Positions 18,508 through 20,258 of a DNA stretch of 33,475 bases are shown here, piece by piece. Numbering within the stretch: position 1 is the first letter of the stretch; each line of letters begins with the position of its first letter. The stretch comes from a bacterium (GTDB lineage Bacteria; Bdellovibrionota_C; UBA2361; RFPC01), in assembly GCA_022763385.1 (NCBI GenBank), contig JALEGQ010000224.1:1-33475 (forward strand). Reading direction: 5' to 3'. The translations under genes were made by a program, and so were the position numbers. The notes under the pieces are model-generated. The model did no database searches and was not told where the DNA came from. It worked only from the letters and a program-made list of their open reading frames with translations.

Positions 18508-19449
18508 ATGAAAAGATTTTTTGCCAAAAAAATTCTCATCTTCTTTCTCATCGCTATCGTCCTCGGCTTCTCTCTCGTTCCGAGTAGCACCTATGCGAAC
18601 CTCATTACGAAAGCGCTGCTCCGTCAGATCGACACCACAACCGTCTTTGTCTCCGTACGCGATCCCGACCTCGCCTTTATCGGCCTCCGAACCCGAGAGC
18701 TCCTCGTCCGCCCAAAGAGCTCTCTCTTTGGGCTCTCTCTGAAGGAGGTACGGATCGTCCCCCTCTTCAGTGACCTGCTCCGTGGAAGAGTGACGCTCAA
18801 GGTAACCGGGCGATGGCTACAGGGAGACCTCTCCCTCTTATGGCAGCCCAACGAGGACACCATCTCACTCTCCCTCGTCGGCACGGAGCTTCACCGCTTT
18901 CCATTCTTTCAAGGGCTTGGCTTTCAGGGGGGCATCCTGAATACCGAGCTGACCGACCTCGCCTTCCGTCGAGATGGCTCACTCCGATCGGTAAAAAACC
19001 TCACCATCGCGCTCAGCGATATCTCGAAACCGCGGCCCTCCTCACTTCCACCGGCACTCCTCGGGCTCCCCCTCGAAGTGAGCATCCCGCGCCTCTCCGA
19101 GACCTCCCTCCAACTCTCACTTCGCACCGCCCCGCTCGCCAGAGGCGCCTCTGCCCCAGGAGAGCCCCCTCTCACTGCCGAAAACGATGAGCAACTCATC
19201 ATTGAAGAGGCAAAACTCCTCTCGAACCTCGGCGAACTCAGCGGCAGCGGAACCACCCTCCTCCGCTCCCCTCACCACCTCGACCTGAACTTCACCGGAA
19301 CCCTCAAGAAGCCCGGTTTCCGCCTCCTCGAAGACCCCATCAAACTCTTCAGCAGTGGAAAGATCACCGGCCCAGATCAGCCCTTCACCACCATCATCAC
19401 CGGCCCCCTCCGCCCAATCCCCCTCATCAAAATCACCCCGAAAACCTAA
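18508..19449 (+). CDS. gspN: Type II secretion system protein GspN
   Basis: A 313-residue protein with an N-terminal membrane anchor or signal (about 8-28, ILIFFLIAIVLGFSL) and a beta-rich periplasmic part. Features such as FIGLRTRELLVRPKSSLFGLSLKEVRIVPLFSDLLRGRVTLKV and LDLNFTGTLKKPGFRLL follow the GspN pattern of short strands resembling AsmA-like proteins. GspN is an accessory T2SS component of unclear function, present in only some systems. It lies 21 bases after gspM and ends the block. The last codons (PKT and the TAA) lie inside the left arm of a long inverted repeat, so the repeat has shaped or replaced the natural C-terminus. Confidence 0.78.
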   Translation: MKRFFAKKILIFFLIAIVLGFSLVPSSTYANLITKALLRQIDTTTVFVSVRDPDLAFIGLRTRELLVRPKSSLFGLSLKEVRIVPLFSDLLRGRVTLKVTGRWLQGDLSLLWQPNEDTISLSLVGTELHRFPFFQGLGFQGGILNTELTDLAFRRDGSLRSVKNLTIALSDISKPRPSSLPPALLGLPLEVSIPRLSETSLQLSLRTAPLARGASAPGEPPLTAENDEQLIIEEAKLLSNLGELSGSGTTLLRSPHHLDLNFTGTLKKPGFRLLEDPIKLFSSGKITGPDQPFTTIITGPLRPIPLIKITPKT

Positions 19450-19536
19450 AGGGTGTCTGACACCCGTACCTTTTGCTCCACCTGTTTTCAATAACTTAGG
19501 GGTGCGGGGTGTCCGACACCCTTTAGGTTTTCGGGG
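19436..19536. repeat. Long inverted repeat, REP/MITE-like
   Basis: The 30-base left arm (19436-19465) and right arm (19507-19536) are reverse complements with a single mismatch, around a 41-base loop. Each arm contains an internal 15-base near-palindrome, GGGTGTCTGACACCC on the left (19451-19465) and GGGTGTCCGACACCC on the right (19507-19521). Palindromes of the GGTGTCnGACACC type are common dispersed elements, often linked with REP-associated tyrosine transposases. No T-run follows either arm, so an ordinary intrinsic terminator is less likely. No transposase is in the window and no clear target duplication flanks the arms. The gspN stop codon lies in the left arm. Confidence 0.9.
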
Positions 19537-19595
19537 ATGGAGGGGGGTGGAGGAGTGTGCGATATTGCTCGGGTAGGGTGAGCGGAGGAACGCGG

Positions 19596-20258
19596 ATGTT
19601 GTTTGCGATTGTGTCAGTACTGGTGGCGGGTCTCTCGGCCGGGGCGGTGTATGGCACGTATCACGTGGTTTCTAATCGGGCAGCTTCGAGTATCGGGCAG
19701 GAGAGCGCTCGACTCTTGGAGGAGATTCAGGAGAAGGAATCTCGGGCTCAGGAGTTACTCCGATATAAGGATGGATACTGCTCTCAGGCGCAGTACGAGT
19801 CGATTCACGGACAGATTCCCCAACTTGAAGAGGATCTGGCGAAGGAGAAGGAATCCCTGGTCTCGCTGGAGGGGAACCTCGATTCCTCCCAACAACAGGT
19901 CGAGGAGAAAGAAGCCCACCAACAGGAGCTCAAGTCTTCCAAAGAAGAAGATGAGATTAAGCTTGAGGAGCTCCTGACGAGCTATCAGGACAACTCGAGC
20001 GAATCTATCGCTCTGGAGCAAAAACTTGCTCAATCGATGAAGAATCTCGAGTCGATCATGAGCGACCTCACCCTCACCGATGACCAGAGGAGCCAACTCG
20101 ATGCCCTTAATGAGGCACTCAGCGCTGCGGGTGAGAACTTAAGAACTCTCATTACCGAGTACGAGTCGGTCAACGAACGGTTAAAAATGCTCCGAGAACA
20201 ACACGACGACCTCGAAGAAGAATACACAAAACTGGTAGAACAGCAGCTCGGAGAGTAG
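19596..20258 (+). CDS. Unrecognised membrane-anchored coiled-coil protein
   Basis: I do not recognise this 220-residue protein. The ATG at 19596 has AGCGGAGGA six bases upstream, a good ribosome site. Residues 2-22 (LFAIVSVLVAGLSAGAVYGTY) form one membrane helix. From about residue 30 to the end the sequence is Glu/Gln/Lys-rich with a heptad-like pattern (SARLLEEIQEKESRAQELL, LEEDLAKEKESLVSLEG, QQQVEEKEAHQQELK, LREQHDDLEEEYTKLV), so a long coiled coil is likely, with a break near 155-165 (LTLTDDQRSQL). A single Cys lies in the DGYCSQ segment. It follows the inverted repeat and is probably a separate transcription unit. A structural or scaffold role at the inner membrane is possible. Confidence 0.75.
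   Translation: MLFAIVSVLVAGLSAGAVYGTYHVVSNRAASSIGQESARLLEEIQEKESRAQELLRYKDGYCSQAQYESIHGQIPQLEEDLAKEKESLVSLEGNLDSSQQQVEEKEAHQQELKSSKEEDEIKLEELLTSYQDNSSESIALEQKLAQSMKNLESIMSDLTLTDDQRSQLDALNEALSAAGENLRTLITEYESVNERLKMLREQHDDLEEEYTKLVEQQLGE

Follow-up and report, generated by a model that had tools for sequence, protein, structure and literature searches.

The window (the whole stretch analyzed, 33,475 nt) encodes gspN in the same cluster as gspD, gspE, gspF, and gspM, and gspN ends within an inverted repeat (Table 1). The gspN protein matches the GspN family TIGR04411 with an E value of 1.5e-4, which is under the family cut-off. A repeat search of the window returned two 30-nt arms that are 29/30 complementary (97%) and 41 nt apart, confirming the near-perfect 30-base inverted repeat with one differing position that a preliminary description had reported from the letters alone. 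The palindromes said to be nested in the arms were also found: one GGGTGTCnGACACCC palindrome lies inside each arm, GGTGTCTGACACC in the left and GGTGTCCGACACC in the right, and the sole arm-to-arm mismatch is the center base of these palindromes. No further such palindrome was detected in the window, and with up to one mismatch allowed, the palindrome match count in the window was equaled by 1 of 100 shuffles. The left arm does encode the end of gspN, as the same description held, the last codons (Lys-Thr-stop) being read from the repeat foot. Folding of the inverted-repeat stretch as RNA gave −67 kcal/mol (z −7.9) and folding as DNA gave z −8.1, with 0/200 shuffles as good in each case.

Table 1. 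Features at the 3′ end of gspN, in window coordinates
Feature	Position	Strand	Remarks
gspN, 313 aa	18508..19449	+	ORF; stop codon TAA (19447-19449) inside the left arm
Left arm, repeat copy 1	19436..19465	-	Core 19452-19464; foot AGGTTTT points left into gspN
Spacer, 41 nt	19466..19506	.	By eye, family tail CCTGTTTTCAATAACTTAGG (cf. site L020), weakly supported in a held-out test
Right arm, repeat copy 2, inverted to copy 1	19507..19536	+	Core 19508-19520; foot AGGTTTT points right
Next ORF downstream, outside the repeat	19557..20258	+	Coiled-coil-like protein, role unassigned

To the preliminary description the element looked like a REP/MITE unit mobilized by a REP-associated tyrosine transposase (RAYT), and a single copy in the genome, together with an identical gspN end in relatives that lack the repeat, was named as the outcome that would tell against it. 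In the source genome of the window (G000; 3.07 Mb in 228 contigs, 86.5% complete), the core GTGTCNGACAC instead occurs in 63 exact copies and GGTGTCNGACACC in 54, the reversed-pattern control giving 0 for both. The center base is A or T in 53 of the 54 GGTGTCNGACACC copies; the one exception is the right arm of the window, with a C center, so the inverted orientation of the window pair was decided by the arms. A sequence model made from 59 sites gave 83 strand-wise matches, equivalent to 66 places after both-strand matches were merged; these comprise 61 of the 63 exact cores and five new degenerate ones, bringing the known places to 68. Model R1 matches the left arm at 19441-19473 on the − strand (E 5.7e-7) and the right arm at 19507-19531 (+, E 0.023) and 19504-19530 (−, E 1.8e-4). 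No model matches were detected in seven near relatives, for each of which the 150 best first-look candidates were scored, and the 13-mer is present in 12 of 95 other genomes at one to three copies each. The repeat is a dispersed palindrome family amplified, among the species compared, in this one only.

Alignment of 61 sites, centered and oriented by the center base, gave a consensus of about 35 nt, AACCnAACGGGTGTCAGACACCCATnAGGTTTT. Two of the 63 sites had been collapsed as near-identical before the consensus, gene-position, and tag counts, and two further sites were omitted from some alignments because a flank was missing or because they were identical over a 37-nt stretch. The outer stem covaries, with 67 cells changed on both sides compared with 38.4 ± 4.7 in shuffles (0/500 as high), and 73.1% of stem cells are paired compared with a maximum of 49.9% when the arms are slid. 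Neither the number of stem pairs altered on each side (75/500 shuffles as high) nor that of further pair types (351/500) was distinct, and positions 8 and 10 from the center are mostly mismatched. By eye, the feet fall into type A (CAAACG..CATGAGGTTTTG), type B (CACAAGG..CCTTGTGAAA), and type C (CCTAAAGGG..CCCTTTAGG), the feet of the two window copies lying between A and C. Also by eye, a tail beyond the foot is common to some copies and the window spacer; a held-out tail model scored above 5 bits at 12/52 sites compared with 6.5% in mononucleotide shuffles, and at 8/52 compared with 1.7%, a test too weak to fix the length of the unit. Neither the GTAG/GTGG tag (GT[AG]G), which defines the GTAG REPs when it lies 0-2 nt 5′ of the stem, nor the CGTC tag, expected at one end in the CGTC REPs, occurs in more than 7 of the 61 sites at any single position; tag and tail motifs other than these were picked after looking at the sites.

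An IS200/RAYT-type gene, which the preliminary description had suggested looking for, is present and is flanked on each side by a repeat copy. Three IS200-like genes in the genome match PF01797, on contigs C117, C31, and C111. The C117 gene encodes a TnpA-REP-like protein of 320 aa and has AGTGTCCGACACC 75 nt upstream of its start and AGTGTCAGACACC 46 nt downstream of its stop, both measured to the 11-nt core. Since there is one core per ~49 kb, two cores within 80 nt of both ends of this gene are unlikely to be there by chance. Both flanking copies read AGTGTC(C/A)GACACC on the + strand and are direct by their AGACACC side, an orientation made ambiguous by the C center and left-pointing foot of the upstream copy. 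For the C117 protein, the matches to NCBIfam REP_Tyr_transpos (E 6.3e-15; 55 of 80 bits) and to Pfam (19 of 23 bits; 20.7 in another search) score under the curated cut-offs, and a profile of eight of its homologs matches the solved TnpA-REP structure PDB 4er8 (E 3e-4). The C117 protein keeps H61, H63, and Tyr126, the middle residue of the HUH motif being Lys and the tyrosine standing in a Y---QP rather than a Y---NP context. A relative on contig C135 is 63% identical to the C117 protein over 49 residues before the contig ends; it has AGTGTCAGACACCTTGTGAAAA upstream at a similar distance, followed by a stretch resembling the C117 one. The C31 and C111 transposases were rejected as owners of the repeat: their flanks carry other repeats, GGTGCGTCCCACC palindromes upstream of the C31 gene and ATTCGTCCCCGGGATGACTATCCC units on both sides of the C111 gene, and no core copies were found in the surrounding 10.3 and 14.3 kb, respectively, the two cores that C31 holds lying ~12.5 kb from its transposase.

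The element at gspN is thus probably an inverted pair of REP-like palindrome copies, from a family amplified in this species only and linked to a resident RAYT, an HUH single-strand nuclease that is encoded on C117 and has a second relative on C135. By analogy with TnpA-REP enzymes, the RAYT would recognize the hairpin in single-stranded DNA, cleave it via Tyr126, and rejoin it, and would spread the palindrome in trans as a non-autonomous unit. One unit would have inserted at the gspN 3′ end, its foot now encoding Lys-Thr-stop, and an inverted second copy would have created the 30-bp hairpin; if transcribed, this hairpin would be located at the gspN stop and could, as a side effect of insertion, stabilize the transcript or attenuate it. 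The family is presumably mobile, and the C117 RAYT may mobilize its amplified sub-type. The main gap in the RAYT link is that most dispersed copies are of sub-type A (..CATGAGGTTTT) and differ in the foot from the RAYT-side copies, which are of sub-type B (..CCTTGTGA). This difference favors a variant within the same repeat class, which we consider rather unlikely, in which a different RAYT, now lost or absent from the assembly, spread sub-type A, and the C117 and C135 genes share only the core by descent. The assembly is 86.5% complete and yielded no RAYT with ends of sub-type A; to judge by the C135 relative, more than one RAYT of the subfamily has existed in this genome. However, dispersed copies of sub-type B also occur (for example on C15, C31, and C175), and the two sub-types do not differ in the 11-nt core.

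Judged against genes called with a home-made codon-usage program, 58 of 61 sites lie outside called ORFs, and 11 of 61 overlap a called stop codon; because many neighbors were not called, the gene-orientation tallies are incomplete. A preference for stop codons was considered and rejected: among the 21 sites with both neighbors called within 600 nt, 7 overlap a stop compared with 5.0 ± 1.6 expected, not above chance given the gap sizes, and 1 overlaps a start compared with 3.8 expected. With stop overlap at chance level, gspN is one of several genes whose stop a copy may supply and is no proof of targeting. Usable GspN homologs align as far as query residues 299-311 of 313, so gspN shows no visible truncation. 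The comparison of the gspN end with relatives that the preliminary description had proposed is a weak one, since the same-genus gspN (35% identical) is truncated at a contig end, and identity to the remaining homologs is only 24-33%. It appears improbable that the unit acts chiefly as a gsp-operon transcript end or mRNA-stability hairpin maintained by selection. The hairpin at the gspN stop codon is very stable, there are four terminator-like sites in 19300-19700 compared with 0.3 expected, and such roles have been hypothesized for REPs generally (PMC3733652); yet the window sequence has no uninterrupted run of Ts after the long stem, an Rfam search gave no match to a known RNA family, and across all sites stop overlap is at the chance level given above. 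It is very improbable that a DNA-binding regulator uses the palindrome as a dispersed target site and that the palindrome is only incidentally close to a RAYT, a reading that the invariant 11-nt core (invariant by choice of search), the near-invariant 13-mer, and the several copies between divergent genes (5/61 sites typed −+) would favor, but against which stand conservation and covariation out to 15 nt from the center, copies also between convergent and tandem genes and in direct clusters, and the copies on both sides of a RAYT.

Compared with known systems, the repeat shows the general features of REPs, a palindrome of 20-40 nt in many extragenic copies, and that of RAYT-associated repeats, copies flanking a Y1 transposase gene at either end (at C117), and lacks the tags of the GTAG and CGTC REP superfamilies. 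REP/RAYT systems (REPtrons), as outlined by Nunvar et al. 2010, have REPs with a GT(A/G)G head, usually in more than 100 copies, with inverted REPs at RAYTs (PMC2817692). As in that outline, we found an intergenic palindromic repeat, a RAYT with a copy on each side, compensatory stem changes, and several RAYT/repeat pairs in one genome; unlike it, the repeat has no GT(A/G)G head, occupies ~68 places, and has C117 copies that are direct by the AGACACC side, though of ambiguous orientation overall. Other close systems are the TIRtrons/TIRYTs, described as untagged, self-complementary repeats beside RAYT-like genes (PMC3733652), and the TnpA-Y1 subclasses reported to have atypical or no REPs and atypical secondary structures (PMC6006769), with which the present system shares a RAYT-like transposase, untagged, partly self-complementary flanks, and a moderately abundant genomic family. 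The 320 aa of the C117 protein is close to the median of 325 aa given for TnpA-Y1 subclass 2.3 (PMC6006769). Its Y---QP differs from the Y---NP of class 2 TnpA-Y1, subclass 2.3 is reported there without REP-like flanks, unlike C117, and no GGGGWSAS consensus was seen in the repeat (PMC3733652, PMC6006769). REPINs are inverted doublets in 93% of cases in SBW25 according to Bertels and Rainey 2011 (PMC3116915). Like them, the window copy is an inverted doublet whose two halves, set apart by a short spacer, fold into a single hairpin, but the family as a whole is different: its copies are mostly singlets or direct pairs, 41 of 63 having no neighbor within 150 nt, and the other 22 form 12 neighbor pairs of which 4 are inverted by the center base, the window pair included. 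The repeat appears to be a variant of the REP/RAYT kind; the tests made place it outside both the GTAG and the CGTC REPs, and its copies taken together do not form a REPIN population. The REP/RAYT proposal of the preliminary description is largely supported, by a dispersed, species-specific palindrome family and a RAYT-type gene bracketed by its copies. The repeat lacks the GTAG tag of classical REPs, and movement by the RAYT would follow from analogy. Among the records returned, a literature search for the motif letters gave unrelated subjects only, and one for REPs with a transposase in Bdellovibrio gave only an sRNA paper.

Matches to the C117 RAYT were detected in 38 of 45 genomes of the phylum, its own included. 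At 8 of 29 other loci (L083, L084, L086, L087, L090, L092, L096, and L099), some of the 29 being without one flank, a 10-mer from a palindrome-like stretch upstream recurs inverted downstream, with a CTCAGA/TCTGAG-type center. TC-centered palindromes (stem ≥4) were counted at the 22 nearer loci, leaving out seven that are more distant or partial (L101, L106-L111): 26 were found in 10,096 near-flank bases compared with 15 in 26,982 bases 500-1250 nt away, 14/22 loci having one near the RAYT and 5/22 having them on both sides. The palindromes beside homologous RAYTs share the TC-N-GA center and have other stems. The nearest named homolog, from Bdellovibrionales MAG HKST-UBA25 (L131), is 51% identical and is flanked by AGTGTCAGACGACCTGTGAA upstream and GTGTCTGATACTTCACAG repeats downstream, close to sub-type B. 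An amplified counterpart in a same-genus genome was considered and rejected, TTCTCNGAGAA occurring 16 times compared with 11 for the control. The motif GGTGTCTGAKA was not amplified in relatives, at 0 to 9 copies per genome in 28 genomes; 2 of its 3 sites in G005 and 3 of its 9 in G019 lie beside a RAYT. In six homologs (L084, L085, L087, L089, L095, and L096), NHIQ stands in place of the H-x-H of HUH nucleases, and L093 has NYIQ.

It is quite possible, if short of probable, that these enzymes form a separate REP-RAYT lineage, in which RAYTs of ~320 aa with Y---QP, several with H-x-Q for H-x-H, occur across an uncultured delta-proteobacteria-like phylum with untagged TC-N-GA palindromes, kept next to their genes, whose stems change fast. 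The palindromes would be element ends in most species, and the ~68 places here would capture a REP family as it emerges from transposase ends. The system bears on how the terminal hairpins of single-strand transposases give rise to a high-copy REP family: related genomes carry the transposase and palindromes of its own, and the dispersed family is in only one of the genomes compared. The GTAG guide underlies present models of RAYT recognition, and a system without it could test what a RAYT enzyme reads.

Several further repeat arrangements were observed in the genome. At 1310-2195 of locus L010 (contig C40), two copies with long inverted arms in common (~80 nt by eye) flank four tRNA genes (Ser-GGA, Ser-TGA, Arg-ACG, and Ser-GCT). 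Repeat clusters with near-identical flanks (~70-100 nt by eye) lie at pairs of contig ends (C8/C63 and C130/C203), a pattern suggesting that the assembly is interrupted by a larger compound repeat. A second palindrome family, GGTGCGTNNCACC or GGTGCGT(CC/GG)CACC, has 30 genome copies compared with 1 for the reversed control, two of them upstream of another RAYT (L017 1150-1300, contig C31). Long inverted units with ATTCGTCCCCGGGATGACTATCC bracket a third RAYT (L016 970-1130 and 1930-2080, contig C111), and a stretch related to these C111 units also adjoins a repeat copy in L012.
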